Source: Clostridia bacterium
Lineage (GTDB): Bacteria > Bacillota > Clostridia > Christensenellales > Aristaeellaceae
DNA: 40,232 nt
Reading direction: 5' to 3'
Assembly: GCA_017938795.1 (NCBI GenBank)
Contig: JAGBAV010000001.1
Span: 1-40,232, forward strand
A program made the position numbers and the translations under genes. The notes beneath the pieces were generated by a model. It had not been told where the DNA came from. It saw only the letters and a program-made list of their open reading frames with translations, and did not search any database. Every line of letters begins with the position of its first letter. The stretch's first letter is position 1. This document shows, piece after piece, positions 12,620 through 32,318 of this stretch.

Positions 12620-14587
12620 TTAAATCTCGATGGTGCAGCGGTATTCATTCTCGACAGTGACGTTCTTCAGGCGCAGGGCGCGTCCGTCCTGATAGGCCGG
12701 CGGGTTCTGCAGCCAGCAGGGCATACCCTCGAAATGTGCGTAGACCCTGAGGGTGGCCTTTGCCGGGCGGCCGTAGCGCGTGAGCGCAATCTCCCAGAGG
12801 GAGCCGTCGTAGATATCATCGGCGACCTTTTCGCCATCCACGAAGAGCTCGGCGAGCGAGCCTTCATAGTCGGCCCTGAGGTAGACTTCCTCGGCGTCGC
12901 CTGAATAGGAGAGATTAAGCTCATAATCGTAGCAGAGGTAGTTGACGTTCTTCCTTCTGCAGACGACGGAGGACTGCTCCTGCGGCACCTTGACGACGCC
13001 CTGCGCGCCGTCCGTGGTATACCACGGCGTATCGCAGCGGGCGAGGCAGGTCACGGCGCCGCCATGCTCGATGACGGGCGCGCTGCAGATGATCAGCTGC
13101 TCGCGGCCATCCTTGGTGATAGCCCATGCGTCCAGCGCCTCGCGGCGGGTGAGGGTGAGGATATCGGCCTTGCCGAGGCTGCCGTCGATGGCAAACTGCG
13201 GCTCGCCGTAGAAGACGTAGGTGCTGCCGTTGAGGATGCACAGAGGGGAGGCGGTGCGGCTGGATACGGCGGCGTCGCCGACCGGGATGCGGATGGGCAG
13301 GATGCCGTAATAGCCGGACGGGGCTGTTACCACGCCGAGGCCGGGAATGTCGATTGTGCGCTCCGGCAGCTCAAGGCAGCGCTGATGATTGTTGACGAAG
13401 GCGAAGCCAACGCCGTCCTTCATGCGCAGCGCATAGCGCGGGCTCTCCGTATCGGCGGGCTGCTTTGCGCTGCAGTCGGGGATGTCCGGCGCCATAGGGG
13501 CGAGCATTTCGCCGTAGCTGCGCAGGAACATGGAGAGGAGCTTGAGCTCCTTGGCAAGGTCGTCGATCTGGCCGCCCTCGCCGATCGGGGCGTGGGGGGA
13601 GTAGCTCAGCGTCGGCGTCTCGCAGAAGGAGCCGGACTCGCGCGTCTCGTTGAGCTCGGGGCCGGGGTTGATGCCGCCATGGTACATGTAGTAGCCCAGC
13701 AGGTTTGCGCCGCTGCCCAGCTTGACGAGGGACATCGCGCCGGTGTCCGCCGGGATGGCGGTTGGCCTGCGGTGGAAAGTGGAGCCGATGCCGCCGCCCA
13801 TCTCCGCCAGCAGGTAGGGGTAGGCGTCCTCGTCGAAGGAGACGTTCGCGCCGCGCTCAAAGTCGCTGCCCACGTCCACATCGTTGCGCTCGTGGGAGAA
13901 GATGTAGTTCGGGCTCGGCGGGAGGGCTTCCAGGCTGCGGTCCCACGGCGCATCGCAATAGCAGGCCATGACCGGCAGCAGGGAGCCGATGACCGCGCCG
14001 CCCCAGCCGGTGGCGGTGTAGTACGGCGTGATAAAGCCGATCTCCTTCGCCATGGCGAGCAGATCGTCCATATGGCTGTTTTCGCCGCTGCCGCCGCAGT
14101 GGCCGTATTCATTCTCGATCTGCACGCCGATGATCGGGCCGCCGTCCTTGAGGAACATGCCGCGGACCTGAGCAAAGACCTGCTCCCACAGACGGCGTAC
14201 CAGCGCGAGATAGCGCGAGTCACTGCAGCGGGTGGGGATCCCCTTGGTCATCAGCCACTCGGGGAAGCCGCCGTGACGGCATTCGCCGTGGCACCACGGA
14301 CCGATGCGAAGCCAGACAGGCAGCCCGACCGCACGGCATTCCTCGATGAAGTCGTGCAGACAGCGGCGGTCAGAGAAGTCGAAGACGCCTTCTTCAGCTT
14401 CATGATGGATCCAGAAGACGTAGGTGGCGACGATATCCACGCCGCAGGCCTTCATCTTCTCCAGCTCTTTGCGCCATTCGTCTTTCGGGTAGCGTGCGTA
14501 ATGGAATTCGCCCATCATCGGGAGAAAGGGTTTGTCGTCGCGCGAGAGATACTGTGTGTTCCATGAATACACGGGAGCGCTTGACAT
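12620..14587 (-). CDS. Beta-galactosidase, glycoside hydrolase family 35
   Basis: Cytoplasmic exo-beta-galactosidase (clan GH-A, retaining), 655 residues, no signal peptide. The family signature GGPIIGVQIENEYG contains the acid/base E160, and the nucleophile is E262 in LLAEMGGG. The N-terminal barrel (about 1-330) is followed by beta-rich domains. First gene of the operon with the UroD-like protein and a complete sugar importer except for the ATPase, so it probably acts on the imported oligosaccharide. Its ATG overlaps the -35 box of the divergent araC promoter, and the whole gap between the two genes is only 49 bases. Galactose removal from xyloglucan or galactan side chains is plausible; specificity is not proven. 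Confidence 0.9.
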   Translation of the reverse strand: MSSAPVYSWNTQYLSRDDKPFLPMMGEFHYARYPKDEWRKELEKMKACGVDIVATYVFWIHHEAEEGVFDFSDRRCLHDFIEECRAVGLPVWLRIGPWCHGECRHGGFPEWLMTKGIPTRCSDSRYLALVRRLWEQVFAQVRGMFLKDGGPIIGVQIENEYGHCGGSGENSHMDDLLAMAKEIGFITPYYTATGWGGAVIGSLLPVMACYCDAPWDRSLEALPPSPNYIFSHERNDVDVGSDFERGANVSFDEDAYPYLLAEMGGGIGSTFHRRPTAIPADTGAMSLVKLGSGANLLGYYMYHGGINPGPELNETRESGSFCETPTLSYSPHAPIGEGGQIDDLAKELKLLSMFLRSYGEMLAPMAPDIPDCSAKQPADTESPRYALRMKDGVGFAFVNNHQRCLELPERTIDIPGLGVVTAPSGYYGILPIRIPVGDAAVSSRTASPLCILNGSTYVFYGEPQFAIDGSLGKADILTLTRREALDAWAITKDGREQLIICSAPVIEHGGAVTCLARCDTPWYTTDGAQGVVKVPQEQSSVVCRRKNVNYLCYDYELNLSYSGDAEEVYLRADYEGSLAELFVDGEKVADDIYDGSLWEIALTRYGRPAKATLRVYAHFEGMPCWLQNPPAYQDGRALRLKNVTVENEYRCTIEI

Positions 14588-16970: not shown

Positions 16971-19208
16971 TCAGTGCATGACGACGGTATAGGGCTTTTC
17001 GCTGTCGGTGGTGACGCAGGCCTTGCCGTCCCGGATGACGACGGTGAACGTCGCGGCGGGCTTGCCCTGCAGGTCGGGGATGACGACGGTGCGGCTCTCG
17101 CCCTCGGCGAGCTGATAGACATGCAGCTCCAGCCCGTCCAGATAGTCATAATCCGGCCGGCTGTCGCAGCTGCCCATGGGCAGCACCGTGCCCGGGCGCA
17201 CCATCAGCGGCAGGGACATGAAGTCGTGCGTCTCCGTGCGCCAGTGACCGCCCTGCGCGGTCTCGCCGCTGAGCAGGCTGGTCCATACGCCGTCGGGCAG
17301 GTAATACTGCACCTGACCGTCCTTGCGGAAGACGGGCGCGGTCAGCAGGCTTTCACCGAGCATATACTGCCTGTCGAGCATATCGCAGGCGGGATCATCC
17401 GGGAACTCCAGCATCATCGGGCGCATCATCGGCGTGCCGTGCTCATGCGCCTCGACGGCTGCGCCGTAGAGGTAGGGCATCAGGCGGCACTTGAGGCGGA
17501 CGAATTTGCGCAGCACATCGCTGCTCTCCTCGTCGAAGAGCCACGGCACGCGGTAGCTGGAGGAGCCGTGCAGACGGCTGTGGCTGGAGAGCACGCCGAA
17601 CTGGCACCAGCGCTTGTAGACGTCCGCAGGCGCGGTGGATTCAAAGCCGGAGATATCGTGGCTCCAGTAGCCGAAGCCGGAGTGGCTCATGGACAGGCCT
17701 GCGCGCAGGGTCTCCGCCATGGAGACGTAGGATGCGCTGTTGTCGCCGCCCCAGTGCACGGGGAACTGCTGGCCGCCGGCCGTCGCGCTGCGGGCGAAGA
17801 GGATGGCCTCGCCCTCGCCGCGCGCCTCCTTGAGCACGTCAAAGACCATCCTGTTGTACAGGAAGGTGTAGTAGTTGTGCATCCGCAGCGGGTCGGAGCC
17901 GTCGTGATAGGCGATGCCGCGCACGGGGATACGCTCACCGAAGTCGGTCTTGAAGCAGTCCACGCCCATCTCAAGCAGGCGGCGCAGATAGCCGCAGTAC
18001 CACTCGCGGGCGGCGGGATTGGTGACGTCCAGAATGCCCATGCCGGCTTGCCACATGTCCGTCTGCCAGACGTCGCCTTCGACGGTCTTGATCAGGTAGC
18101 CATGCTCCATGCCCTCGGCGAAGAGGGGACTGGCCTGACCGATGTACGGATTGATCCAGCAGCACAGGCGCAGACCGCGCTCATGATAGCGGCGCAGCAT
18201 GCCCTCGGGATCCGGGAAGGTCTCCGGATCCCACTCAAAGTCGCACCAGTTGTAGCCCTTCATCCAGAAGCAGTCGAAATGGAAGACGCTCAGCGGGATT
18301 TCGCGCTCTGCCATGCCGCCGATGAAGGAGGAGGCCGTCGCCTCGTCGTAGTTGGTGGTGAAGGAGGTGGACAGCCACAGGCCAAAGCTCCACGCCGGGA
18401 GCAGCGCCGGGCGGCCGGTCAGCGCGGTGTAGAGATCCAGCGTGCCCTTGGGCGTGCCGCCATAGATGATGTCATACACCATCGTCTCGCCCTCATGGGA
18501 GAACTGGACGCGCTCGACTTTCTCGCTGGCGACCTCAAAGCTCACGTCGGAGGCGTCCTCAACAAACACGCCGTAGCCGCGGTTGGTCATGTAGAAGGGG
18601 ATATTCTTGTATGCGAGCTCGCTGGCGGTGCCGCCGTCGGCATTCCACATGTCGACCGTCTGCCCGTTCTTGACGTATGCGCCGAAGCGCTCGCCAAGAC
18701 CATAGACATTCTCGCCCACGTCGAGCATCAGGGATTCGACCATGTAGCTCTTTCCGTGCGGCAGCAGGGAGCAGGGGCCCTCTTCCTTGCGCAGGGCGCG
18801 GCCCATCGCGCGGAAGCCGGAGGTCGTCAGCACGCGGCCGCCCGCCATGTAATCGACCTGCCAGCCGCCGCGGGAGACGCGCGCGGTCAGCTCGCCGCTG
18901 GTGAAGGAGACGTAATCCTCGCTCTCTTCGATGACGGGCGTGACGGGCTCCTCGCAGGTTTCAAAGCGCGGCTCGCGCATCTTCTTTCCGGCGAAGTGGG
19001 TGATCTTCACGCGGATGATGTTGCGGCGCGGCGCGGTGAAGGTGATGGTGAGCGTGCCGCCGTCGAGCGTATCGCCGCGATGGCGGACGGGGCGGCAGGC
19101 GGAGATCACCTCGAGCGCATCCTCGCGCCTGCTGACGCGGACGCACTGGGTGGCGTAGCTCATGATGTATTCCTGACGGGTCAGCCAGTAACCATTGGTA
19201 AAGCGCAT
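16971..19208 (-). CDS. yicI: Alpha-xylosidase, glycoside hydrolase family 31 (YicI type)
   Basis: Retaining alpha-xylosidase that removes the non-reducing alpha-1,6-xylose from xyloglucan oligosaccharides or isoprimeverose. 745 residues; matches E. coli YicI over its length. The nucleophile is D422 in KTDFGERIP and the acid/base D489 in PVHWGGDN, the YicI D416 and D482 positions; SSHSRLHGSSSYRVPW and MEFPDDPACD-like blocks are also conserved. No signal peptide, so it acts on imported sugars. The start is the ATG at 19208 after AAAGGAG, 16 bases downstream of the fucosidase with which it forms a unit. This is the strongest specificity call in the window and points to xyloglucan. Confidence 0.95.
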   Translation of the reverse strand: MRFTNGYWLTRQEYIMSYATQCVRVSRREDALEVISACRPVRHRGDTLDGGTLTITFTAPRRNIIRVKITHFAGKKMREPRFETCEEPVTPVIEESEDYVSFTSGELTARVSRGGWQVDYMAGGRVLTTSGFRAMGRALRKEEGPCSLLPHGKSYMVESLMLDVGENVYGLGERFGAYVKNGQTVDMWNADGGTASELAYKNIPFYMTNRGYGVFVEDASDVSFEVASEKVERVQFSHEGETMVYDIIYGGTPKGTLDLYTALTGRPALLPAWSFGLWLSTSFTTNYDEATASSFIGGMAEREIPLSVFHFDCFWMKGYNWCDFEWDPETFPDPEGMLRRYHERGLRLCCWINPYIGQASPLFAEGMEHGYLIKTVEGDVWQTDMWQAGMGILDVTNPAAREWYCGYLRRLLEMGVDCFKTDFGERIPVRGIAYHDGSDPLRMHNYYTFLYNRMVFDVLKEARGEGEAILFARSATAGGQQFPVHWGGDNSASYVSMAETLRAGLSMSHSGFGYWSHDISGFESTAPADVYKRWCQFGVLSSHSRLHGSSSYRVPWLFDEESSDVLRKFVRLKCRLMPYLYGAAVEAHEHGTPMMRPMMLEFPDDPACDMLDRQYMLGESLLTAPVFRKDGQVQYYLPDGVWTSLLSGETAQGGHWRTETHDFMSLPLMVRPGTVLPMGSCDSRPDYDYLDGLELHVYQLAEGESRTVVIPDLQGKPAATFTVVIRDGKACVTTDSEKPYTVVMH

Positions 19209-19224: not shown

Positions 19225-20700
19225 TCATTCGGTGATGATCTTCACGACGACGGGCAGATCGCTGCGCCAATCCCCGAGATTGACGGTCAGGGCCTCGGTG
19301 TCGCGCGTATAGGACACGGCGCCCAGCCCCAGCACCTCGACGCCGCGCAGGAGGCCGTGCCAGAGCGGCTTGCGGCTGGCGTCCGCCTCGCGCAGGCTGC
19401 GGATGCGCAGCACGCCGTCCTCCGGGCAGCGCATAGCGATGGCGTAGATATTGCCGCCGCGGCAGGTGAAGCGGAAATCCTCGCTGGTGAAGTCGCGGGA
19501 CTTCCCGTCGGCGAACTGGCCTTCCTCAACGGCGGTCGGGCCTTCAAATGCTGTGCGCCAGATGCCGGTGCCGTGGATGGCTTCGTCGTTGATCTTCATC
19601 CAGCCGGCAAGCGTCTTCAGGATCTCAAGATCCTTTTCGGAGAGGGTGCCGTCCGGTTTCGGGCCGAAGTTCAGCAGCAGGCGACCATTCTTGCAGACGA
19701 CGTCCGCCAGATCCCAGATGATCTCGATGGGCTCTTTGTAGACGGCGCGTTCCTTGCTCTCGGAGTAGCACCAGCTGTGGCGCATGACGGACGTATCGCT
19801 CTGCCAAAGGAAGGGCTTGACCTCGGCGAACTGGCCGCGCTCCACGTCCGGCACGGCGATGCCGAAGGGGAAGGCGTCGTGCTTGTAATTGATGACGCAG
19901 CCGCCCCATTCCTCCGCGCGGTTGAAGTAATAGGCCGCGAAGGTCTTGAGATAGGGCTTGACGGCCTCATGATGGATCCACCAGTCGAAGTAGAGGATGC
20001 GCGGATGATAGCGATCCACAATCTCGCAGCAGCGCAGCAGCCAGTCCTCCAGATACTCCGTGGAGGGGGCGCAGGCGCCGTCCAGCGTATGATGATTCTC
20101 GGGCTCCGGCATGGCCGGCCAGTAGAGATGATCGCGCGGGACATCCTGCGGGATATCGCTCTCAAATTCCTTGCCGTGGCTCATGAACCACCAGTGCTCC
20201 ACGCGGTGGGACGAGGCGCCGACGGTCATGCCCGCGCGGTCAGCGGCGCGCAGCAGATCGCCCATGACGTCGCGATGCGGGCCCATCTCGGCGGCGTTCC
20301 AATGGGAGAGCTCGGAGGCATACATCTGGAAGCCGTCATGATGCTCCGCAACCGGGACGATATAGTCTGCTCCGGCGTCGGTGAAGGCCTTGATCCATGC
20401 CTCGGGGTCAAACTGCTCCATCTTCAGCATGGGGATGAAGTCCTTGTAGCCAAAGTCCTTGTGGTCGCCCCAGTGCCTGAGATGATGTTCATATTCCTCG
20501 CTGCCCTTGATGTACATGTTGCGGGCGTACCAGTCGTGATACGCGGGCACGGAGAACGGGCCCCAGTGCAGGAAGATGCCAAGGCGCTTTTCCTTGTACC
20601 ATGCGGGGACGGGATGCTCCGCCAGGGACGCCCAGTCCGCCTTATAACGCCCTTCGCGGATCACCTGATTGATGCGGTCAAGATAAGCCTGTCGATCCAT
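19225..20700 (-). CDS. Alpha-L-fucosidase, glycoside hydrolase family 29
   Basis: Retaining alpha-L-fucosidase, 491 residues, no signal peptide. The GH29 barrel shows GIFLHWGPFSVPA near the start, the EHHDGFQMY block and the nucleophile D239 in ILYFDWWI; a beta-sandwich domain makes the C-terminus. The start is the ATG at 20700, nine bases after AAAGGAG; the longer reading to 20754 has no site. It is expressed with the alpha-xylosidase from one promoter, which fits fucosylated xyloglucan side chains (Fuc-Gal-Xyl) or fucosylated N-glycan pieces. The linkage cannot be decided from the sequence. Confidence 0.93.
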   Translation of the reverse strand: MDRQAYLDRINQVIREGRYKADWASLAEHPVPAWYKEKRLGIFLHWGPFSVPAYHDWYARNMYIKGSEEYEHHLRHWGDHKDFGYKDFIPMLKMEQFDPEAWIKAFTDAGADYIVPVAEHHDGFQMYASELSHWNAAEMGPHRDVMGDLLRAADRAGMTVGASSHRVEHWWFMSHGKEFESDIPQDVPRDHLYWPAMPEPENHHTLDGACAPSTEYLEDWLLRCCEIVDRYHPRILYFDWWIHHEAVKPYLKTFAAYYFNRAEEWGGCVINYKHDAFPFGIAVPDVERGQFAEVKPFLWQSDTSVMRHSWCYSESKERAVYKEPIEIIWDLADVVCKNGRLLLNFGPKPDGTLSEKDLEILKTLAGWMKINDEAIHGTGIWRTAFEGPTAVEEGQFADGKSRDFTSEDFRFTCRGGNIYAIAMRCPEDGVLRIRSLREADASRKPLWHGLLRGVEVLGLGAVSYTRDTEALTVNLGDWRSDLPVVVKIITE

Positions 20701-20790
20701 AACGATGAACTCCTTTCTGTGTCGGGAGATGGCATTCATGCCCTGATGGCGCATCGCCGCGCGGGTGAGGCATCATCAGGGTATAACTCT

Positions 20791-20874: not shown

Positions 20875-20890
20875 GGAGGGTACGAATGGA

Positions 20891-22576
20891 TTACTTCACG
20901 ATGCCGCAGGCGGCGAGGGCCTCGTTGATGTGAACCATCTTCTCGGCGACATACTCGTCATAGCCATAGCTCTTGCAGGTGGCGACCATCTCGGACCACA
21001 GCTGCTCGAACTGCTCCTCAGACTCGGCGTAGACGCAGTTCCAGCTGCCCTGCTTCATCACCGGGGCGAACAGCGCACGGTTCTCCTTGGAGGCGTCGGA
21101 CATATCCGGGAACACCCACGCGATCGCGGTGGCCGGAACGACGGAGTGCTTGCCGGTGTTGCGGTAGAGCTCGATGCCGTTGGCGGCGCCGTTGGCATAC
21201 TCGGTGCTCCAGGCCTTGCTCAGCTCGGTGGAGTAGCGCTCGGTGTAGCACGGCCAGCCCTTATAGGAGTAGGAGTAGGTCTTGCCCGGGATCATCTGCT
21301 CGAGCTTGATCGTCTCGTGGTTGAACTTGCTCTCGCCGTCCTGGAAGGTGCCGCCGCCGTACTCAGCCGGCATGGCGGTGGTGTCGCGGGCTTCCTGGCA
21401 GGCCCAGCCGAACTCGGTCATGAACGGGACGCCGTTCTCGTCGTAATCCCAGCACAGACCCTTCGGGCCGTAGGTCTGCACGATGACGCCTTCCTCGGTG
21501 CACAGCCACTCGATCAGCTCGAGCGCGCGCTCCGGGTACTCGCAGTCGGCGCCGAGGGACCACATGCGGTTGCCGCCGGCAGTGGAGACGGTCAGCTGCT
21601 GCGGGGCAGAGTCTTCGAACATGAAGGTGGTGTAGCCGATCTTCTGAGCGGCGCGGTCGGCGTTGTTGAAGTTGCCGGTGATCCAGCCCCACAGCGCCAC
21701 GAGGTAGCGGCCGCCGGAGAGCTTCTGGGTGTAGGTATCGAAGTTCTGGGAGACGGACTCCGGATCGAACAGGCCGAGGCGATACAGCTCGTTGTTCACC
21801 TTCAGCGCGCGGTAGTACAGGCTGCCGTCCTCGAGCGGATTGACGACGTCGCCGGTGGCGTAGTTGACGCCGAGGAAGTCAGCTTCTTTGTAGCCGTAGA
21901 AGGTCATCAGGTCCCAGGTGAACTTCATGACGCAGTCCTCCCAGTCGCCGAAGCCGCCGTAGGCATAGACCTTCTCGCCGCTCTCGGTGGTCGGAACGGC
22001 GTCCTGCAGCGCCTTCAGGAAGGCGGGCAGATCTTCAAGGGAGGTCAGCGCGGGCTTGCCGGCCTTCTCCCAGGCGTCGTAACGGACCTGCAGCGCGTAG
22101 GTCGGATCGGTGATCTCGGCCCAGGCGTCATTCTCCATGGCCACGGAGTAGGAGAAGCCGTACTTGCCCGGCATGCCCTGCGCGGCGGAGAAGTCGCTGA
22201 CCTTCGCAAAGGCCTCGTCGAAGTAGGTGTCAAGCGTCGGATAGGCGGACATGTCGATATCGGTCATGTCCATCACCAGCTCGGCCTGCAGGGCGGTGGA
22301 GAAGTGCTCGCCCATGTCGCCCCAGCAGATGATGTCGCCCAGCTCCTCAGCCGCCACGCCGGCGGTGAAGGCGTTGGTGTCCACGTTGGTGGAGACGAAG
22401 TTCAGGGTGATGTTGAAGCGGTCCTTGACTTCCTTGGCAAACCAGCCGGACTGCTCGCCGGCGAAGTTCGCGACCTGGGAGAACACGGTCAGGGTGATGG
22501 GCTCACGATACTCTTCTGCGACCGCGACGACGGACAGCATGCAGAGCATCAGAACCAGGGCAAGGATTTTCTTCAT
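20891..22576 (-). CDS. Extracellular oligosaccharide-binding protein of an ABC importer (LplA-like)
   Basis: 561-residue binding protein of the LplA/YtcQ kind, which pairs with LplB/LplC permeases. A signal peptide is clear (MKKILALVLMLCMLSVVAVA, cleavage before EEY), but, as in the paralogue at 9370, there is no lipobox around the core cysteine. The LplA-type segment ADCEYPERALELIEWL is typical. The start is the ATG at 22576 after AGGAGG. It is the last gene of the operon lacI, GH35-like hydrolase, fused permease, LplC permease, binding protein. The 14-base ribosome binding site leader is identical to that of the other binding-protein gene. Confidence 0.9.
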   Translation of the reverse strand: MKKILALVLMLCMLSVVAVAEEYREPITLTVFSQVANFAGEQSGWFAKEVKDRFNITLNFVSTNVDTNAFTAGVAAEELGDIICWGDMGEHFSTALQAELVMDMTDIDMSAYPTLDTYFDEAFAKVSDFSAAQGMPGKYGFSYSVAMENDAWAEITDPTYALQVRYDAWEKAGKPALTSLEDLPAFLKALQDAVPTTESGEKVYAYGGFGDWEDCVMKFTWDLMTFYGYKEADFLGVNYATGDVVNPLEDGSLYYRALKVNNELYRLGLFDPESVSQNFDTYTQKLSGGRYLVALWGWITGNFNNADRAAQKIGYTTFMFEDSAPQQLTVSTAGGNRMWSLGADCEYPERALELIEWLCTEEGVIVQTYGPKGLCWDYDENGVPFMTEFGWACQEARDTTAMPAEYGGGTFQDGESKFNHETIKLEQMIPGKTYSYSYKGWPCYTERYSTELSKAWSTEYANGAANGIELYRNTGKHSVVPATAIAWVFPDMSDASKENRALFAPVMKQGSWNCVYAESEEQFEQLWSEMVATCKSYGYDEYVAEKMVHINEALAACGIVK

Positions 22577-22584
22577 GTGGGTTT

Positions 22585-22621: not shown

Positions 22622-22646
22622 AATGCGCAGCAGGGATGCGGGCCGG

Positions 22647-23585
22647 TCAGCCCTTGACAGCGCCGATCATAATGCCCTTGACGAAGTGGCGCTGGAAGTA
22701 GGGATAGACCAGCAGAATGGGGAAGGTGACGACCATCGCGACGGTCATCTGCACGGAGAGGGACGTCTGCTTGGTGGCGAGGTTCGCCATGGCGTTGGCG
22801 TCCTGTGTGGTGCGCACCAGCGCGGCGAGGGACTGCGCCTCGTGCTGATACTTGTAGAGCAGGAACTGCAGCGTGTAGTAGTTGCCCGAGGGCATGAGCA
22901 TCATCGTGTCGGTGAAGCTGTTCCACTGGCCGACCGCGCAGAAGATGCACAGCGTGGCCAGAATCGGGGTGATCAGCGGCATGATGACCGAGACGAAGAT
23001 GCGGATATAGCCCGCGCCGTCCAGCTCCGCGCTCTCCTCAAGGGAGGCGGGCAGGCCCTCAATGAAGGTCTTGACGAGGATGACGTTGTAGGGCGAGACG
23101 AGGCCCGGGATGACGTACACCCAGAAATTATCGAGGAAGCCAAGGTTGCGCAGGTTCATATACCACGGGATGAGGCCGGCAGAGAAGTACATGGTGATTA
23201 CGATGAGGCGATACCAGACCTTGCGCAGCCACATCTCCTGCTTGGTGACCAGATAGCCAAGGAACGCGCAGCCCGCGACTGTCCACAGCGTGCCCAGTAC
23301 CGTGCGGGCGACGGACACCAGCAGGGCGTCCATGATGCCGTCGATCTTGAGCACCTGCACGTAGTTCTCCAGATGAAGATCGCGCGGGTAGAGCTGGATG
23401 CGGCCAAGGCGCACAAGCTCGTTGGAGGAGATGGTGTTGATGAACAGATAGTAGAAGGGGAAGATACAGGCCAGCGTGATCAGCAGGAAGACGGTGTAAT
23501 TGACGATATTGAATGCGATATCGCCCTTGCTGAGCTTCTGACGGCGCTTTTTGATGCGCTTGCTTTCGGTGGTTGCTGTCAGCAT
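22647..23585 (-). CDS. Sugar ABC transporter permease, LplC/CUT1 type
   Basis: 312-residue permease with six predicted helices, EAA loop EESAELDGAGYIRIFVSVIMP and the LplC-type ending IMIGAVKG. The ATG at 23585 is chosen because GGAGGG lies seven bases ahead; the ATG two codons upstream at 23591 almost touches the ribosome binding site. It follows the fused permease by 15 bases and is presumably its heterodimer partner. No ATPase is encoded nearby. Confidence 0.92.
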   Translation of the reverse strand: MLTATTESKRIKKRRQKLSKGDIAFNIVNYTVFLLITLACIFPFYYLFINTISSNELVRLGRIQLYPRDLHLENYVQVLKIDGIMDALLVSVARTVLGTLWTVAGCAFLGYLVTKQEMWLRKVWYRLIVITMYFSAGLIPWYMNLRNLGFLDNFWVYVIPGLVSPYNVILVKTFIEGLPASLEESAELDGAGYIRIFVSVIMPLITPILATLCIFCAVGQWNSFTDTMMLMPSGNYYTLQFLLYKYQHEAQSLAALVRTTQDANAMANLATKQTSLSVQMTVAMVVTFPILLVYPYFQRHFVKGIMIGAVKG

Positions 23586-23600
23586 GATCATCCCTCCTTA

Positions 23601-26195
23601 TCACATGATGGACTCGCCGCGCAGCTTCTTGGAGGCGAAATTCGCGCTGAAGAGAAGCGTGACGCTGACAAGCGTTTTGAGGATACCGATCGCGGTGGCG
23701 AAGGAGTACAGCGTGGTACCCTTGGAGGCGATGGTGATGTTGTAGACGTACAGGTCCAGCACCTCGATGGTGTTCTTGTTCATGCTGTTCTGGAAGACCA
23801 TGTACTGATCCATGCCGTTGTTGAGGATGTTGGAGATGGAGAGCATCAGCAGGACGAAGAACGTGGGCAGCAGGCCCGGCAGGGTGATGTGGCGCATGGT
23901 CTGCCAGCGGTTTGCGCCGTCGACCTTCGCCGCCTCATACTGCTCCTGATCGATGCCGGCGATGGCGGCGAGATACATGATCGCGCCCCAGCCAAGGCCC
24001 TTCCATGTGTTCCATGCCCACATCTTCAGCCAGATGTGCTCGCCGCTGTTGAGCCATGCGACGGGCTGGTCGATCGCGCCGATGGCCAGCATGAACTTGC
24101 TGAAGATGCCGGTGTCCATCGCGAACAGGCACATTGCAAACGAGAAGACCAGCGCCCAGGAGATGAAGTTGGGCAGGGTGGTGAAGATCTGGACGAACTT
24201 CTTGAAGCGGACGTTGTTCACCTCATTGAGGAAGATGGCGAAGACCATCGGCAGCCAGCTGGTCAGCAGGTTGAGACCGGACATGCCGAAGGTATTCTTC
24301 AGCACGCGGATGATGTTCTCCCTGTGGCCGGGGTTGGTGAACATTTCAGTGAACCACTTCAGCCCGACGAATTCCTGCTCGCTCATGGGCACGCCGAACT
24401 TGTAGTTATAGAAGGCGTAGCTCCAGCCGTAGAGCGGCAGATAGCTGAAGAGGAAGACAGCGACGAGGAAGGGGAGCATCAGCAGGAAGAGCTTGTACTT
24501 CTTGGGGAGCTCCTCCAGATGCGCGAAGTTGGCGAAGAAGGCGGCGAAGACCAGCAGCGGCAGCGAGATATAGGTATATACCGTCGCCGTTGCGGAGCCG
24601 ATTGTGCGCGGCACCTGCGTGCTCAGCAGCAGCCATCCCACAATGCGGACAGCGAAGGCAAGCACAAACAGGATGATGGTGATGCGCCTGTCCTTGTTGG
24701 CGATGAGCGCCGCCGCACCGGCGAGGGTCAGCAGCAGCGCAGCCCAGATGCCGATGCTCTGTGTGTTCGCGGCCTGCCCCATGATCTGCGCGACCATATC
24801 GGCGGTGAGATCCTCCTTGGGCTCCTCGCCGTACATGGTCTTGCCCTTGTTGTCTTTGGGCTCAAGGACGTCCTGCGGGACGTCAAAGATCAGCGACTGC
24901 GCGCCGTATACGGACACCGTGGACTGAACCTTGTTCTTACCGGGCTTGCTGAAGGAATAGGAAGCGGAGGGCAGCAGCATCATGACGACGGCCGCCAGCG
25001 CGAGCGCCACAGCAGTGACACGCAGGCGTTTGCTTTCCGGGATGGGGTTGCTGAAATACGGGACATTCGCTGTGCGCACGCCCATCACGCCGCACAGCGC
25101 GCTGGCGGCTGCGGTCATCGTCATGAGCATGGGGCAGACGGTGACGCAGCCGAGGCCGAGCTTGGAGAGCTGGCGGGCGGCGCTGGTGAACATGTCGCCG
25201 TCGCTGATGGTCATCACGCCCATGACCGCAGTGCCGAAGAGCACGGCAGCCAGCGTGGTCATCGCCAGAGAGAACCAGCGGTCAACCCTGGGCAGGAAGG
25301 CCAGCAGCGCGCCCAGCAGCAGCAGAGCCGCGCCGCCGAGCAGATAGGCGTTGATGCCGTTGGTGGAGTTCTTGATGGTGAAGATGCCCCTGATGTTGGT
25401 GACGTCGCCGGAGTAGGGCTCCAGCACAGCGATATCACCGGAGACGACGTCGGCAAAGACGTTCTGCTCCCCAGCGATGGCGGCAAGCGTGGGCTCGCTG
25501 CCCATCATCTCCTGCGCGAGGGTGAGGGAGCGGTTCATGGCGGCGCTGTCCGCCTCGCTGCCGGTGATGCTGGCCGGCACGCTGACCACATGACCGGGCA
25601 GCATCAGCATGGCGACGGCGGCGACAGCCAGCGCGCCGCTGAGCCTGCGCCATGCGGTATCGCCGATGGGCAGTGGCTCTGCGTCCTTGAGGGCGAGCGC
25701 GGTCACCAGCACCTGAATGATGGATGCGGCGGCCGGGATATACGCGAAGACCTGCAATTCATCCAGCAGGAGCGCAAAGAGCAGGGAGGAGGAGACGTTC
25801 ATCAGCTGCAGCGTGAAGGCGGCAATGAACGCGCAGGCGGCGCAGCTGACAACGAACGCAGCCTGCGGGCAGCCTGCGCCGATGAGGCTGAGCACGCCTG
25901 TGGCGGGCTGCACGCGGCGGCGGACAGGCACAAGGCTGAGCGCAAGGCCAGCAGCCATCAGCGCAAGGCCGATGATCAGATTCCCTCCGCCTGTCTCAAT
26001 GAGCGAGAGCTGGGGTATGGCGTCCGCAGGAAGCCCAATGCCCGGCTTAAGCAGATCCAGCAGGGAGAGTGTCTGGGGGAAGAGCGCTGCCGTCTCCGGT
26101 CCGATCTGGCTGTGGACATAGATCTTGACTGCAGGCAGGAAGAGACAGATGATCGCTGCAGCCAGACACAGGCAGGCGATCCACTTCTTTTTCAT
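23601..26195 (-). CDS. LplB-type sugar permease fused to a long N-terminal region of three tandem 4-TM modules
   Basis: 864 residues, almost three times a normal LplB subunit. Residues about 565-864 are an ordinary CUT1 permease (start of helix 1 at KYKLFLLMLPFLVAVFLFSYLPLYG; EAA loop YEAAKVDGANRWQTMRHITLP near 754-774). Residues 1-560 are extra: three similar units at about 1-168, 183-378 and 388-556. Each has a first helix ending in Leu-Pro (LFLPAV, LMLPGH, MLLPSA), a polar loop of about 45-80 residues, and three more helices. That gives about 12 extra helices and three exported loops. I do not recognise this region as a named family; extra binding or sensing at the membrane is a guess. The ATG at 26195 with a weak AAGAAG eight bases ahead is chosen over a GTG at 26204. 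One continuous frame, so not an annotation artefact. Confidence 0.85.
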   Translation of the reverse strand: MKKKWIACLCLAAAIICLFLPAVKIYVHSQIGPETAALFPQTLSLLDLLKPGIGLPADAIPQLSLIETGGGNLIIGLALMAAGLALSLVPVRRRVQPATGVLSLIGAGCPQAAFVVSCAACAFIAAFTLQLMNVSSSLLFALLLDELQVFAYIPAAASIIQVLVTALALKDAEPLPIGDTAWRRLSGALAVAAVAMLMLPGHVVSVPASITGSEADSAAMNRSLTLAQEMMGSEPTLAAIAGEQNVFADVVSGDIAVLEPYSGDVTNIRGIFTIKNSTNGINAYLLGGAALLLLGALLAFLPRVDRWFSLAMTTLAAVLFGTAVMGVMTISDGDMFTSAARQLSKLGLGCVTVCPMLMTMTAAASALCGVMGVRTANVPYFSNPIPESKRLRVTAVALALAAVVMMLLPSASYSFSKPGKNKVQSTVSVYGAQSLIFDVPQDVLEPKDNKGKTMYGEEPKEDLTADMVAQIMGQAANTQSIGIWAALLLTLAGAAALIANKDRRITIILFVLAFAVRIVGWLLLSTQVPRTIGSATATVYTYISLPLLVFAAFFANFAHLEELPKKYKLFLLMLPFLVAVFLFSYLPLYGWSYAFYNYKFGVPMSEQEFVGLKWFTEMFTNPGHRENIIRVLKNTFGMSGLNLLTSWLPMVFAIFLNEVNNVRFKKFVQIFTTLPNFISWALVFSFAMCLFAMDTGIFSKFMLAIGAIDQPVAWLNSGEHIWLKMWAWNTWKGLGWGAIMYLAAIAGIDQEQYEAAKVDGANRWQTMRHITLPGLLPTFFVLLMLSISNILNNGMDQYMVFQNSMNKNTIEVLDLYVYNITIASKGTTLYSFATAIGILKTLVSVTLLFSANFASKKLRGESIM

Positions 26196-26227
26196 ACCGA
26201 TCACTTCTTTCTGATGTGTTTGCCGGA

Positions 26228-27808
26228 TTATATGCAGGGATTCAGGCGGATGCGGACGGTTTCGCCGCGATGGACGAAGAGCTCGAAGTTGCTCTCATCG
26301 CCGTTGCGGCAGCGGTCGCATACCCAGCGATCACCCTCAAAATGCCCTTCCTCCACGGAGAGGAAATTCAGCGTTCCGCTCTGGCGGGACTGGAGGAGCG
26401 GCCACGGATCCTCCACAAGGGGATCGGGCCTGCGCCTGAAATCCACCTTCACGCCGCAGCCGGAGAGGAAGAATTCATCCTCATCCGTCTGGATCAGGAG
26501 GGCGCGCCCGCGCGCGGTCAGCACGTCGGCGTTCTGCGGGTCGCGGGTATTGATGCGGCTGCCCAGCCCCCAGCGGCCGCCGCCGGCGCTGATGAACTTC
26601 GCCTCGATGTGATAGCGATCAAGGCGAAGATACTGCTTGTCCATGAATTCCTGCTGGACGAGCGCATGCACCCTGCCCGTGCCGCGCCAGCGGATGAGCA
26701 GAGGCGCGACGCCCATGACGGCCTTCATGCTCTGCGCAACGTGCACGGCCTCCGGCAGGAGGCTGCCGCCCGCGTCCAGCGCGCTGGCGCCGCCGAAGCA
26801 GGCCATGCCGATGCAGCCGTAGTCCGCGAAGGCCTCCATCATATTCATGGCGTTGGCCTCGCCCATGATCGGGCTCTCCGGGATGAAGAGCGGGTTGTCA
26901 TTGCGCGCATAGAGCCCGGTAACGCGGCGGTAACGCTCCCTGTCCGGGACGTACATATCCGGGCAGAGCAGGTCGATGTCGGGCGCTGCGGCCTTGTAGA
27001 TATCCAGCACGCGGCCCACGGCAGCGCCGCTGTTGTAGCAGGCGCCGGCCTCTTCATAGCCCTGCTCGCCGAGCATGACATTGGTGAAGACCGGAATATC
27101 GTACTGCGCCCGACCGGCCATGGCGACGGCGTTCATGTAGCGCGCATGCGCCCATGCCATGAATGCCTCGTGAGCATGCCGGCCAAAACGGCTGCGCCAG
27201 CTGCTTCCGCCGGGCATCACGCCGCAGTCCTCAAGCACAATGCCGTCAAGACACGCCGGAACGTCCTGACGATAGAGCGCGAGCGTTTCGTCGGAATAAT
27301 CGAAGTCGGTGTTGGCCAGACCCATTTCATTCTCAACCTGCACGGCGATGACCGTGCGGGTATCGCCGTCCGCCTCGCGCAGATGCGCCATGAGCGCGGC
27401 GAAGGCGCGGCTGTCCGCCTGCTGCGTGGCCTCGCATACGGGGGAGAGGCTGGCGACATGACCGCCGTCGCGCCCGCGCGCGACACGGTAAAGATCGGGG
27501 CGGAGCTTGACCCATTCGGGCACATAGTTGGGATGACCGTTCTTGCTTGCGCCGAACCAGAGCAGCACCAGATACAGGCCATTCTCCCGGCAGCGCCGGA
27601 TCAGATCGTCCGCATCGTCAAAACAGAAGCTGCCCTCCTGCGGCTCTGTACGGAACCAGTAGATGGGCGCCTCGAGCAGATTGCCGTGATAGGCCTTCAC
27701 AGCGGCGATCTCCCGCTCCAGCATGGACGGGTCGCCCGTGGAGGAGTTATGCGTCTGCAGGCCAAGCGGCAGGATGGGATTCCCTGCACGGTCACGGAAG
27801 AAATCCAT
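26228..27808 (-). CDS. GH35-like clan GH-A glycosidase (DUF5597-type putative beta-galactosidase)
   Basis: 526-residue TIM-barrel hydrolase. The clan GH-A acid/base is E161 in AVQVENEMG and the likely nucleophile E311 in LFIPESPIMG. The overall plan, including a beta-rich C-terminus about 380-526, resembles the GH35-like proteins that carry a DUF5597 C-terminal domain; a GH42-like assignment is the main alternative. No signal peptide. The start is the ATG at 27808 after AAGGAGG; the longer reading to 27892 runs back into lacI and is rejected. It lies 11 bases after lacI and 32 bases before the fused permease, so it probably cleaves the sugar imported by that system. Substrate unknown, beta-galactoside most likely. 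Confidence 0.75.
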   Translation of the reverse strand: MDFFRDRAGNPILPLGLQTHNSSTGDPSMLEREIAAVKAYHGNLLEAPIYWFRTEPQEGSFCFDDADDLIRRCRENGLYLVLLWFGASKNGHPNYVPEWVKLRPDLYRVARGRDGGHVASLSPVCEATQQADSRAFAALMAHLREADGDTRTVIAVQVENEMGLANTDFDYSDETLALYRQDVPACLDGIVLEDCGVMPGGSSWRSRFGRHAHEAFMAWAHARYMNAVAMAGRAQYDIPVFTNVMLGEQGYEEAGACYNSGAAVGRVLDIYKAAAPDIDLLCPDMYVPDRERYRRVTGLYARNDNPLFIPESPIMGEANAMNMMEAFADYGCIGMACFGGASALDAGGSLLPEAVHVAQSMKAVMGVAPLLIRWRGTGRVHALVQQEFMDKQYLRLDRYHIEAKFISAGGGRWGLGSRINTRDPQNADVLTARGRALLIQTDEDEFFLSGCGVKVDFRRRPDPLVEDPWPLLQSRQSGTLNFLSVEEGHFEGDRWVCDRCRNGDESNFELFVHRGETVRIRLNPCI

Positions 27809-27819
27809 AGGCAGCCTCC

Positions 27820-28809
27820 TTATTTCAGCGCGGACACGGTGTCGCCGTCCATCAGCATGCCGTCGACAATGGCGGTATGGGGAACATAGCACTTGGGATC
27901 CTCGATCGCGCTGATGATCTCCTGCACGGCAAGACGGCCCATCTCGCGCGGATTCTGATGATAGGTGGTCAGCGGGGTGTTCATCAGCTGGACAACGCTG
28001 ATGCCGCCGAAGCCCATGACGCTGACGTCCTGCGGCACATGCAGCCCGCTGCGCTCGATGGCCTGCATGCCGCCAAGCGCGCAGATATCATCCGGGAAGA
28101 TGACGCATGTCGGTGGATGGGGCAGGGTGAGGAGCTGCTTTACGGCGTCCGCCGCAGGCTGTACCTGACGGAAATGGCGGGCAACAACAAACTCGGGCGG
28201 GACGGAGATGCCGCATTCCCTGCAGCCCCTGTGGAAGCCGGCAAGACGCTGGCTGGTGACGGTCGAAAGCTCGCCGTGGATGAAGGCGATGCGTTCATGA
28301 CCGAGGCTGTGCGCATGACGAACCAGCACCTCCATGGCCTGAACGTTGTCGTTGCGGATGACTGTACAGCCGGGCTGCTCATACTCGATGGAGACAAGCG
28401 GCATGCCGCTGTCGAAGATGGACTGCATGCTGCTCTTATCGTAGGGGATCTGCACAAGCAGCACGCCGGCGCACTGCCTGCGCATTGCATGCTCGTAGTA
28501 GGTCATGCCCGCGTTATTCTGGAGGAAGGTGATTTCATATCCATGCTCAGCGGCTTCCTGCTGAATGGACTCGAGAACCTCGGAGAAAAACTCATGCGTG
28601 AACAGATTATAGTAGAGGATGCCGATGTTCTTGCTGCGGTTGGTCTTCAGCAGCCGCGCAGCCTCGTTGGGCTGATAGCCCATCTCCCGCGCGACGCGGC
28701 GGACCATCTCTGCCCGCTCGCGGCTGATACCGGGGCGATTGTTCAGCGCGCGTGATACGGCGGCGATGGACAGCCCGCACTGCTCAGCGACCATTCGGAT
28801 TGTGACCAC
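27820..28809 (-). CDS. LacI-family transcriptional repressor, autoregulated
   Basis: 329-residue regulator. The N-terminal helix-turn-helix reads TIRMVAEQCGLSIAAVSRALNN with the hinge-helix QPNEAARLLKT; a periplasmic-binding-protein-like sugar sensor domain follows (about 60-329). GTG 28809 is chosen because GAGG lies about ten bases ahead and the product then starts right at the DNA-binding domain; upstream codons in the frame (to 28998) cross the promoter and operator. First gene of the five-gene transport operon. A GTAAAACGTTTAC operator sits between its -10 box and start codon, so it should repress itself and the operon until its sugar binds. Confidence 0.92.
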   Translation of the reverse strand: MVTIRMVAEQCGLSIAAVSRALNNRPGISRERAEMVRRVAREMGYQPNEAARLLKTNRSKNIGILYYNLFTHEFFSEVLESIQQEAAEHGYEITFLQNNAGMTYYEHAMRRQCAGVLLVQIPYDKSSMQSIFDSGMPLVSIEYEQPGCTVIRNDNVQAMEVLVRHAHSLGHERIAFIHGELSTVTSQRLAGFHRGCRECGISVPPEFVVARHFRQVQPAADAVKQLLTLPHPPTCVIFPDDICALGGMQAIERSGLHVPQDVSVMGFGGISVVQLMNTPLTTYHQNPREMGRLAVQEIISAIEDPKCYVPHTAIVDGMLMDGDTVSALK

Positions 28810-28837
28810 GGACTGCACACCTCGTTTTCGGATAAAG

Positions 28838-28850
28838 GTAAAACGTTTAC
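28838..28850. promoter_or_regulatory. LacI-type operator O1
   Basis: GTAAAACGTTTAC is a near-perfect version of the CG-centred palindrome GTAAACGTTTAC bound by LacI/GalR regulators. It lies 10 bases downstream of the -10 box of the lacI promoter, a position where bound repressor blocks initiation. Confidence 0.8.
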
Positions 28851-28860
28851 GTTCGATTGT

Positions 28861-28890
28861 ATTATACCGAGACAGCGCTGTGCTTGTCAA
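28861..28890 (-). promoter_or_regulatory. Sigma-A promoter of lacI and its transport operon
   Basis: On the minus strand a perfect TTGACA (28890-28885), an 18-base spacer and a perfect TATAAT (28866-28861). It drives lacI and probably the four genes after it, since no terminator is seen before 20874. Confidence 0.9.
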
Positions 28891-29005
28891 TCGTAAATGG
28901 GCGGTAATGGACAGAATGTAATGAAAATTTATAGAAGTTATGACGTTTGCAGGCGGGAAAATTTGAAATACAAGGCGAATAATATAGTGACATAACAAAA
29001 AGAAG

Positions 29006-29266: not shown

Positions 29267-30003
29267 CAGAGGAGTGCGTACGCCTTGACGGCCATCCGCT
29301 GATGCTCTGCACGCAGGGAGAGGGCGGCCCGGTGATCTATTGGGGCACAGCCTGCGGGCAGGAGGCGATGATCCGTGAGGCGGCTTCGCTTCTCAGCGAG
29401 CGCACGCCGGGCCTTTCGTGGACGCTTGCGGCCTATGGCATGCCGCGCTGGAATCATGACTATTCGCCATGGCCGTCGCCTGCGGTCTTCAGGGGAGAGT
29501 CGTTCACCGGCGGCGCACGGGATACTCTTGATTGGCTCCGGCAGGTCTTGATCCCCTATGCAGAGGGGACACGGGGCATGGGCGGCGGAATGCGGATGAC
29601 CGCAGGGTATTCGCTTTCCGGGCTCTTCAGCCTCTATGCGCTCTACGAATGCGCGCTGTTTGACGGCTCGGCGGCCTGCAGCCCGTCGCTGTGGTATCCC
29701 GGGTGGGAGGCATACATGAACGGGCGCACCCCTGCAAAGCCGTGCGCCGTCTGCCTGAGCCTCGGGCGCACAGAGGAGCGGACGAGGAACAGAACAATGG
29801 CGGCTGTGGGCGACGCAGTGCGCGCGCAGGCGCAGCGGCTTGCTGGATGCCCGATGGTGAAGCGCAGCGAGCTGGTATGGCATCCGGGCGGACACTTTGC
29901 GCAGAATGAGCTGCGCATGGCGCACGGGCTTGCGTGGCTAGTCCGGCATGCAGCCTGCAGGGAGGATGCAGAAGAATCAACCAATAAGGAAGGGATACTG
30001 TGA
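29263..30003 (+). CDS. Small alpha/beta-hydrolase esterase (Fes/EstD-like fold)
   Basis: 246-residue esterase of the Fes/IroE or putative esterase type. The nucleophile elbow reads AGYSLSGLFSLYAL, with S117 as probable nucleophile; its position +2 is Ser rather than the usual Gly (GxSxS instead of GxSxG). The catalytic histidine is probably H211 in WHPGGHFAQ. No signal peptide. The start is the ATG at 29263, seven bases after GGAGG; a longer frame to 29047 is rejected for lack of conservation and ribosome binding site. Its stop overlaps the GH74 start (GTGA), so it is made together with GH74 and GH31. Removal of acetyl groups from imported xyloglucan fragments is a reasonable inference. Confidence 0.75.
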   Translation: MTEECVRLDGHPLMLCTQGEGGPVIYWGTACGQEAMIREAASLLSERTPGLSWTLAAYGMPRWNHDYSPWPSPAVFRGESFTGGARDTLDWLRQVLIPYAEGTRGMGGGMRMTAGYSLSGLFSLYALYECALFDGSAACSPSLWYPGWEAYMNGRTPAKPCAVCLSLGRTEERTRNRTMAAVGDAVRAQAQRLAGCPMVKRSELVWHPGGHFAQNELRMAHGLAWLVRHAACREDAEESTNKEGIL

Positions 30004-32318
30004 GAAACGTACCGTATATCTATCGTCATCTGCCCATTGGCGGCGGCGGATATGTGACCGGATTCATCTTTCATCCGACGCAGCGCGATCTGCTGTATGC
30101 GCGCACGGATATCGGCGGCATGTACCGGTTTGATCCCTACTCGCAGGAGTGGGTGAGCCTGATCGATCATGTGACGCCGCTTGATCTGAGTCAGGCATTC
30201 CCGATCTCCGCGGCGGTAGATCCGGCGAGGCCTGAAAGGCTGTATGTCGCCTGCGGCGAGCGGCACCTCAGCCAGGGGACGCTTGCGGTATCGGAGGATT
30301 ACGGCGATACGTTCCGCTGCACGACGATCCCGGTGCGCGTTCACGGCAACCTGAACGGGCGCGGTACGGGTGAGCGGCTGCTGCTCAGCCGGGAGGACGA
30401 CAGCACGCTGATCTTCGCCAGCCAGCTGGACGGTCTGCTGATCAGCCGAGATCTTGGCGAAAGCTGGGAGGCGGTGGATGCGTTGCCCGAGCGGGCACTG
30501 ACCTTCGCGGCGCAGCCCTGCGCAGGCGTGCTGCTTGTGGGCAGCGCCGGCCTTGAGCGGGGCGTGCCGGGGGTACGCCGCGGGCCGAGCCTCTACGTCT
30601 CCTATGACGGCGGCGCGAGCTTTGCTGTGATGGAGCAGCCGAAGGATCCCCGCGTGCCGGGGACTGCGCTGCTGGGGCATGTCGCTCAGCGCTGGGCGGC
30701 GGACGAGCGCTATGTGTATGTGACGTTTGCTGCGACGGGGCGCAATAGCTACATACAGGACGTCGGCTACAGCAATGACTCCGGCGACAGTGAATGCGGG
30801 CGGATCGTCCGCTATCCGATCGGGAACGACGGCAGGCTTGGCGCGATGGAGGATATCACACCGCCGTTCTATGCCGATACGCAGTTCGGCTTCTCCGGCC
30901 TGTCGGCGTGCCCTGCCCGGAGCGGGCTGCTGGCAGCGTCGAGCATCTGCCGGGAGGAGGGCGACTTTGTCTGCGTCTCGGAGGACAGAGGCGAGAACTG
31001 GCGCGTGGTGATGTGCGATCTGCAAATCGGCCGGATGGAGTTCCGCCTGCCGTATATGCGCCCCTGCTGCAATGCGGGCAGGAGCATCGTCCACTGGATG
31101 AGCGACTTCGCGATCGATCCGTTTGATCCCCGGTGCGCATGGTTCAATACGGGCACGGGCGTGTTCCGGACGCAGAACCTGCTGGACGACGAGGTGATCT
31201 TCTGCGACTGGTGTGACGGCATAGAGGAGACGGTGCATCTGAATGTCTATGCCCCGACGGACGGGCGCAATCAGGTGATCGATATCATCGGCGATCTGGG
31301 TGGGTTCGCCTTCGAGCAGCTCGATCAGCACTGCCTCAACAGCTTCGCTGATGACGACGGCAACCGTTACATCACCTGCATGAACGCGGACTTCCGCGAC
31401 GAGGCGCCGGATCATGTGATCGTGACGCCGCGCGGCAACTGGAAGGGGTATACCAAGGGCGGCCTGATCGTATCGCATGACGGCTGCGTGCATTTTGACC
31501 GGCTGCCGATGCCCTATGGTCTGGATACGCAGATCGATGCGCTGCTGGCCAGAATTGAAAGGCCGAATGTCAATGCCGGATGGTGCGCGCTGTCCGCGGA
31601 TGGCGGCAGCATCGTATGGGCTGTCGGCGACGGCGACAATCTGCCTGCGCAGTGCCTGATCCGCAGCGGGGATGGCGGCGCGAGCTTTGCCCGCTGCCAT
31701 GTAACGGACATGAACGGACAGCCTGCGCAGGGCCTGATGAAACCGTTTGCCGATCGCTGCGACAGCAGCCTGTTCTACGGCTTCGGTGAGGCGGGGCAGC
31801 TGTATGTGAGCCGCGACGGCGGGCGCAGCTTCGCGCAGAAGGAAGCGCCGGATGGGTTCCCTGCGGTCAATATGGGGCTTGTGGATTGCCGGAATAAGAC
31901 GGAGATCCGGGTGGAATCCGGCGCATGTGGCGTGATCTGGCTGGCGCTGGGCGCTGGCGGGCTCTGGCGGCTTCAGTATGATCAGGCGAATGACAGGTTC
32001 TGCGGCAGGCGGGTTTCTGCGCCGGAGGACGTCGTCTTCCGCATGGGGCTTGGCCTTGGACGACCGGGCGGCGACTATATCCATGAGCGCAAGCGGATCT
32101 ACTTCAGCGGCATTGTCGGCGGAATGTACGGATTCTACAGCATGAATGACGACGGCAGTGATCTGGCGCGGCTCAATACAGCGCGGCAGATGTACGGCGA
32201 GATCAACAGCATGGACGGCGATTGCAGGGTCTATGGCAGATTCTATCTGGCGACGGGCTCCAGCGGCCTGCTGTATGGCGATATCACAGAAGCGAAAGAG
32301 GAAGAGGTGGCATTATGA
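30000..32318 (+). CDS. Xyloglucan-active beta-glucanase, glycoside hydrolase family 74, without signal peptide
   Basis: 772-residue protein of two seven-bladed beta-propellers. Family motifs are strong: GGGGYVTGFIFHPTQRDLLYARTDIGG at the N-terminus with catalytic D37, and GIEET followed by IIGDLGGFAF with the second catalytic Asp at D432. GH74 enzymes are inverting endo-xyloglucanases or reducing-end-specific xyloglucan cellobiohydrolases. Most known members are secreted; this one starts directly with the propeller and has no signal peptide, so it should work in the cytoplasm on imported oligosaccharides. The GTG at 30000 overlaps the esterase stop by four bases and follows AAGGAAGGG. The GH31 gene overlaps its own stop (ATGA). 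The family is sure; endo versus exo action is not. Confidence 0.92.
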   Translation: MRNVPYIYRHLPIGGGGYVTGFIFHPTQRDLLYARTDIGGMYRFDPYSQEWVSLIDHVTPLDLSQAFPISAAVDPARPERLYVACGERHLSQGTLAVSEDYGDTFRCTTIPVRVHGNLNGRGTGERLLLSREDDSTLIFASQLDGLLISRDLGESWEAVDALPERALTFAAQPCAGVLLVGSAGLERGVPGVRRGPSLYVSYDGGASFAVMEQPKDPRVPGTALLGHVAQRWAADERYVYVTFAATGRNSYIQDVGYSNDSGDSECGRIVRYPIGNDGRLGAMEDITPPFYADTQFGFSGLSACPARSGLLAASSICREEGDFVCVSEDRGENWRVVMCDLQIGRMEFRLPYMRPCCNAGRSIVHWMSDFAIDPFDPRCAWFNTGTGVFRTQNLLDDEVIFCDWCDGIEETVHLNVYAPTDGRNQVIDIIGDLGGFAFEQLDQHCLNSFADDDGNRYITCMNADFRDEAPDHVIVTPRGNWKGYTKGGLIVSHDGCVHFDRLPMPYGLDTQIDALLARIERPNVNAGWCALSADGGSIVWAVGDGDNLPAQCLIRSGDGGASFARCHVTDMNGQPAQGLMKPFADRCDSSLFYGFGEAGQLYVSRDGGRSFAQKEAPDGFPAVNMGLVDCRNKTEIRVESGACGVIWLALGAGGLWRLQYDQANDRFCGRRVSAPEDVVFRMGLGLGRPGGDYIHERKRIYFSGIVGGMYGFYSMNDDGSDLARLNTARQMYGEINSMDGDCRVYGRFYLATGSSGLLYGDITEAKEEEVAL

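Follow-up and report, generated by a model that had tools for sequence, protein, structure and literature searches.

An ABC importer permease from a gut Clostridia bacterium preceded by three tandem four-helix modules of predicted claudin/TARP-like fold

The stretch of DNA analysed here (40,232 nucleotides; GCA_017938795.1, contig JAGBAV010000001.1, positions 1 to 40,232, forward strand; hereafter the window) comes from a gut Clostridia bacterium (Bacillota; Clostridia; Christensenellales; Aristaeellaceae, the last being referred to as the host family) and encodes a permease of an ATP-binding cassette (ABC) importer whose LplB-type domain is preceded by three tandem modules of four transmembrane (TM) helices. 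The interpretation we prefer, to which we give somewhat less than an even chance, is that of an intact importer permease carrying in cis three claudin/TARP-like modules as built-in auxiliary subunits.

The open reading frame (ORF) of the long permease runs on the minus strand from 26195 to a stop at 23601 (864 residues, or 867 from a GTG start at 26204). Its C-terminal part matches BPD_transp_1 in Pfam (residues 662-852, E 5.6e-17), the alignment profile matches AlgM1 (4tqu_M, E 1.6e-47), and the translation includes an EAA loop that fits the motif of such permeases (EAA-x3-G-x9-I-x-LP). Residues 1-573 gave no Pfam match at E<=1 and, in NCBIfam, only a sorting-signal model (E 0.23); the profile of this N-terminal region, compared with the sequences of solved structures, returned a single irrelevant match (E 2.5). 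Full-length three-module genes were found in 28 of the 308 host-family genomes (the window and 27 others), spanning 10 of the 50 genera and 54-70% identical over the whole length, a count that is a lower bound as three candidates per genome were scored. Since the full-length gene recurs in 27 genomes besides that of the window, a frameshift or assembly artefact, one of the conditions under which the original prediction would have fallen, is ruled out, and the fusion of an LplB permease to about 560 additional N-terminal residues that it described stands as an intact, conserved gene.

In the hydropathy profile of the N-terminal region, hydrophobic zones recur, and in each unit the first of them is followed by a long polar loop; the AlphaFold2 (AF2) model resolves the region into three units of four membrane helices. 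The prolines of the Leu-Pro pairs ending each first helix (P21, P200, P409) are invariant in the 28 aligned sequences, window included. Lysine plus arginine is higher in the predicted cytoplasmic segments than in the exported ones in all 28 members (mean 0.265 vs 0.069), supporting the predicted topology. In profile-profile comparisons, modules 1 and 2 scored 46.1, modules 2 and 3 scored 38.2, and module 1 aligned in register with the module of a single-module class of permeases described below (35.5); the controls reached at most 23.8 (reversed profiles) and 16.4 (permease segments). The pairs of module 1 with module 3 (23.9), and of modules 2 and 3 with the single module (17.2 and 15.2, respectively), stood at or below the level of the reversed controls, so the relatedness of the units runs through modules 1 and 2. 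Taken as a whole, the profile comparisons of neighbouring modules support a related repeat of three units, and the earlier claim of three similar units, each with a first helix ending in Leu-Pro and an exported polar loop, is borne out by the prolines, the scores, the model and the charge distribution; self-comparison qualifies it only for the pair formed by modules 1 and 3. The 12 predicted additional helices, together with the six usual in an LplB core, agree with the earlier count of about 18, the AF2 model being poor in the core part.

The modules are probably truly claudin-like rather than generic four-helix bundles, as judged from the predicted models. The AF2 confidence for the N-terminal region was mostly 80-95 (pLDDT), falling to 56 near residues 91-100, and the same order was predicted in the three modules: TM1, a strand directly after it, the exported loop, TM2, TM3, a strand in loop 2, and TM4. 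The strand following TM1 and the loop-2 strand were both predicted in each of them (21-25/144-147, 200-204/349-351 and 409-416/533-537). The claudin superfamily is described, in an excerpt of PMC13307082, as having four TM helices, termini in the cytoplasm, one inner loop and two outer ones, and a first strand right after TM1 that is flanked by a strand of the second outer loop; the layout of helices, termini and loops is found in the predicted helices, with the positive-inside distribution in 28 of 28 members. The predicted models of the whole long permease and of module 2 alone were compared with 350,542 library chains. With the whole model as query, TARPs, claudins or GluA2 chains of TARP complexes made up 49 of the 50 best Foldseek rows (of 274 at E<=10), and chains of the claudin superfamily or of designed claudin fold made up 49 of the 50 best VIA rows; with module 2 as query, TARP, GARLH4-complex or claudin chains filled 40 of the 50 best Foldseek rows, including the first 23, and claudin-type chains 44 of the 50 best VIA rows. 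These counts are uncalibrated against the folds of arbitrary four-TM proteins.

At the sequence level the modules remain apart from known claudins. The signature of claudin loop 1, with its conserved disulfide, is W..W..C..C; this signature occurred in none of the 28 members, none of which has two cysteines in one loop 1. AF2 predicted two loop-1 strands of at least three residues per module, against four in the claudin superfamily. Because of the missing disulfide and the halved number of loop-1 strands, the modules are not filed as claudins. No claudin-type Pfam match at E<=1 was obtained among 22 N-terminal regions (which matched 15 families, and as part of which module 2 was compared), or among the 28 module-1 sequences; nor was such a family among the best 25 of the 44 families for module 3. 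DUF4064 (PF13273) gave weak matches (E<=1, best 1.1e-4) to module 3 in 18 of the 28 members; that of the window is not among them. The original label of an unknown family holds for the sequence, although the predicted fold is claudin/TARP-like.

In the 14 closest pairs, omega was 0.18-0.60 for the extension and 0.013-0.198 for the permease domain; purifying selection thus acts on the extension, which nevertheless evolves faster than the permease core. Its most conserved parts are the cytoplasmic linker between modules 2 and 3 (mean identity 0.83) and TM4 of module 3 (0.65); in modules 1 and 2, conservation of the exported loops equals or exceeds that of the helices.

The three-module gene is patchily distributed among its relatives. 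No credible match to the N-terminal region was obtained in the other 28 genomes of the genus to which the window belongs; one additional match there (L002) was discarded as an antisense reading of a LacI gene. A scan of 84,980 species genomes with the alignment of the N-terminal region, of limited sensitivity as it used only two peptide patterns, yielded 27 loci. Their records are titled Clostridia, Clostridiales, Eubacteriales or Christensenellaceae; most are labelled as metagenome-assembled genomes, and several come from samples of roe deer, goat, yak and horse. The three-module profile had no match in 290 other genomes of the class (no other host-family member appearing among the matches listed), and plasmids gave no match to the N-terminal region. 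Within the order, the module 3 profile matched 3 of 347 genomes, all in three-module genes, with no stand-alone module.

The single-module profile is more widespread: it matched 78 of the 308 host-family genomes, 76 of the 81 rows lying in frames of at least 494 residues, i.e. fused to a permease, and the other five (four genomes) in shorter frames, including one split gene and one at a contig end. In the split gene (L135; G189:C133 7740-8301) module and permease lie apart in two frames, which may be a natural break or a sequencing error. Outside the order, the profile matched 3 of 291 sampled genomes of the class (frames of 483-568 residues). Two tandem module matches were found in 2 of the 78 genomes (L033 2022-4973 in G241, and L147 in G234; frames of 987 and 1011 residues); the first module of L033 has a polar, alanine-rich insert of about 330 residues in its loop 1. 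A phylogeny of 92 permease domains placed the three-module class in one clade (100/100) and the single-module class in another (100/95), which included the split gene, entered as plain. Both clades were adjacent in the best tree with a support of 64/33, at which one or two origins of the modules are neither shown nor rejected. The two LplB-like ORFs without the extension in the window (38065-39018, 317 residues; 10387-11415, 342 residues, the 320 given previously being presumably a matter of start-codon choice) agree with the original prediction that the extension is specific to this importer; this holds within the window but not more widely, given the single-module relatives.

The likeliest role for the modules, still a tentative one, is that of built-in auxiliary subunits of the permease. 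Three copies of a four-TM unit of claudin/TARP-like fold, with a reduced loop sheet and no disulfide, would have been added to the permease in cis and in tandem; module 3 would pack on the core of the permease by way of its conserved last helix, and the conserved cytoplasmic linker would fix it to module 2, leaving the exported faces of modules 1 and 2 beside the docking site of the solute-binding protein (SBP), where they might tune docking or gating. The analogy is with AMPA receptors, whose ligand-binding domains resemble bacterial binding proteins and would be acted on by TARP loops. According to an excerpt of PMC12965324, the loops of TARPs and GSG1L are "generally assumed" to interact with ligand-binding domains. 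Binding of a partner protein by the exported loops, as suggested originally, may apply in view of the conservation of these loops in modules 1 and 2. Coevolution between loops and SBP (distances, with permease distances removed) gave no support for a contact between the two (partial r -0.11 for loops, 0.20 for helices), in what is a weak test with 26 sequences. A broader idea, that claudin-type modules are an ancient bacterial accessory subunit for transporters using Venus-flytrap binding proteins, that the TARP/AMPA-receptor pairing repeats or descends from it, and that module number (0, 1, 2, 3) is an evolvable setting of the importer, would be a long shot.

The main rival is a membrane scaffold, in which the modules would mediate lateral self-association of the importer or recruit another membrane protein; we consider it possible but rather unlikely. 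It would suit the tandem repetition and fast evolution expected of an adaptor, as well as the cis assembly of claudins (excerpt of PMC12965324) and the weak similarity of module 3 to DUF4064, a family that includes the four-TM AuxB of S. aureus, reported to homodimerise and to bind PknB (excerpt of PMC12505970). Nevertheless, module 3 of the window itself lacks that similarity and, among the window genes compared, no partner gene was conserved beyond the importer operon. Less likely still is a generic four-helix membrane bundle stabilising or positioning the permease with no special relation to claudins: the predicted strand positions agree with the described claudin fold (excerpt of PMC13307082) in the three modules, and claudin-superfamily chains dominate the best structural matches. 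Binding of glycans or cell wall by the exported loops, as suggested originally, is very unlikely. The loops do face outward next to a carbohydrate importer, and the insert of the two-module relative L033 would fit such a function, but the six exported segments together hold only 0-3 Trp per member, none of them conserved (F+Y+W 5.6%), and no carbohydrate-binding family was found among the Pfam matches.

A last alternative, that the modules tether the SBP in place of a lipid anchor, was suspected because the signal peptide of the window SBP has no lipobox, and is the least probable of all. It is in keeping with the AxA-type signals of the SBPs beside three-module permeases, only 1 of 26 of which has a lipobox-like pattern, and with the envelope: Omp85 was found in none of 31 genomes (that of the window, 18 from its genus and 12 from its order) and detected in 7 of 14 control genomes, discarding a diderm envelope and suggesting a monoderm one, although Lgt was present in the same 31. 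The controls refute it as an anchor replacement: SBPs of plain permeases in the host family equally lack the lipobox (0 of 34 flagged, from 40 loci), and single-module permeases outside the host family (three genomes) adjoin SBPs with a clear lipobox, read by eye, in 4 of 4 cases. A part of the modules in docking of the SBP may still apply. The pattern was found in 4 of 78 SBPs overall, the other three among the 18 SBPs of single-module loci; across 134 exported ORFs an automatic classification listed nine lipobox-like signals, several of which also have an AxA site further on. Type-I signal peptides occur almost throughout the SBPs of the host family.

The importer and its surroundings are listed in Table 1. 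The order permease-permease-SBP is conserved, the second permease being present in 26 and the SBP in 25 of the 27 named loci; the misses (L077 and L089) both end there at a contig edge. The window SBP had no match in Pfam or NCBIfam and matched an extracellular solute-binding protein of family 1 (9pmy_A, E 2.7e-8). No ATPase turned up among the part of the window ORFs that was scanned; presumably, the importer uses a shared MsmX-like ATPase. Positions 12620-32318 are likely a xyloglucan utilisation locus, and the substrate imported in this species would be xyloglucan oligosaccharides, judging from the xyloglucanase (which we take to belong to family GH74) and the enzymes of glycoside hydrolase (GH) families GH31, GH29 and GH35. 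A GH20-like protein and an esterase also lie in this region. The other three-module loci (of 27; median 15 kb of DNA) do not carry the same set (GH74 in none, GH29 in three, GH31 in one, GH35 in one, weak and partial), so the substrate varies or the neighbours reveal it only in part. The DUF5597 hydrolase was found in 7 of 27 three-module loci and in none of the 20 single-module or the 40 plain ones, both comparison sets being hand-picked from the host-family list and not random. Elsewhere in the window, a 561-residue ORF (35388-37070) beside a plain LplB-type importer had no Pfam, NCBIfam or PDB match and is possibly a wrong reading.

Table 1 Features of the long permease and its neighbourhood in the window.
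Feature	Positions	Strand	Evidence
Whole gene: 864-residue ABC permease with three N-terminal 4-TM modules	23601..26195	-	ORF; full length in 28/308 host-family genomes
Module 1, residues 1-178, 4 TM, predicted claudin-like	25662..26195	-	
Module 2, residues 179-384, 4 TM, predicted claudin-like	25044..25661	-	AF2 alone, pLDDT 91.8, pTM 0.83; structure matches
Module 3, residues 385-561, 4 TM, predicted claudin-like; weak DUF4064 similarity in relatives	24513..25043	-	
LplB/AlgM1-type permease domain with EAA loop, residues 562-864 and stop	23601..24512	-	BPD_transp_1; AlgM1 4tqu_M
Exported loop 1 of module 1, residues 21-69	25989..26135	-	AF2 secondary structure; mean identity 0.45
Exported loop 1 of module 2, residues 200-282; 7 invariant positions	25350..25598	-	AF2 and conservation
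Exported loop 1 of module 3, residues 409-478	24762..24971	-	AF2 and conservation
Cytoplasmic linker between modules 2 and 3, residues 376-386	25038..25070	-	Mean identity 0.83; 5/11 positions invariant; most conserved part of the extension
Second permease of the importer	22647..23591	-	BPD_transp_1; adjoins long permease in 26/27 named loci
SBP, type-I signal peptide, no lipobox	20891..22576	-	PDB 9pmy_A match; signal sequence
Glycoside hydrolase with DUF5597 (GH42/GH35-like)	26228..27892	-	
LacI-family regulator; helix-turn-helix from residue 66, real start inside ORF	27820..28998	-	
Alpha-L-fucosidase (GH29)	19225..20754	-	
Alpha-xylosidase (GH31, YicI type)	16971..19208	-	
GH35 beta-galactosidase	12620..14587	-	
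Xyloglucanase of GH74 type	30000..32318	+	PDB xyloglucanases, e.g. 6mgj_A, E 9.2e-55

If the predicted fold is true, a fold of animal junction and receptor proteins, as they appear in the structure lists obtained here, would serve as a built-in subunit of a bacterial transporter, adjoining an SBP that resembles the ligand domain on which TARPs act; the prediction suggests that bacteria build such helper subunits directly into a transporter. Close relatives with 0, 1, 2 and 3 modules make the role of these auxiliary parts directly testable by deletion. In the open-licence PMC literature (subscription papers and preprints lying outside its scope) we found no report of a bacterial claudin-like module or of its fusion to an ABC importer.

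Among known systems, the AlgM1/LplB-type permeases (alginate importer 4tqu) resemble the C-terminal 300 residues, and LplB-type permeases likewise have a partner permease and an SBP in their operon, but AlgM1 (301 residues in the PDB) and the plain LplB-type relatives have no four-TM modules in front. Accessory parts fused to ABC transporters that contact a binding protein or partner are known in the P2 loop of MalF and in the TMD0 of SUR1 and TAP; the former is a soluble inserted domain, unlike the modules, and the latter belongs to exporter-type ABC proteins and is not known to be claudin-like. AuxB of S. aureus is, like the modules, a bacterial four-TM protein, related to them through the weak DUF4064 match, but it is a separate protein with a cytoplasmic tail and no transporter fusion; DUF4064 is assigned to the tetraspanin clan of Pfam (excerpt of PMC12505970). 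Trp_oprn_chp (PF09534) weakly matched 8 of 18 members of the single-module class (best E 9.3e-6), a relation that is unproven; to our knowledge, it is not a transporter fusion. In predicted structure the modules are like TARPs, claudins, LHFPL4/GARLH4 and Cav gamma, the proteins of the claudin fold, with which they share four TM helices, a longer first and shorter second outer loop, and the predicted strands directly after TM1 and in the second loop; TARPs are, moreover, auxiliary subunits placed beside a ligand domain of binding-protein type. Unlike these proteins, the modules have two instead of four predicted loop-1 strands, no disulfide and no Pfam claudin match seen, and they are bacterial, joined in cis to a transporter as tandem copies.
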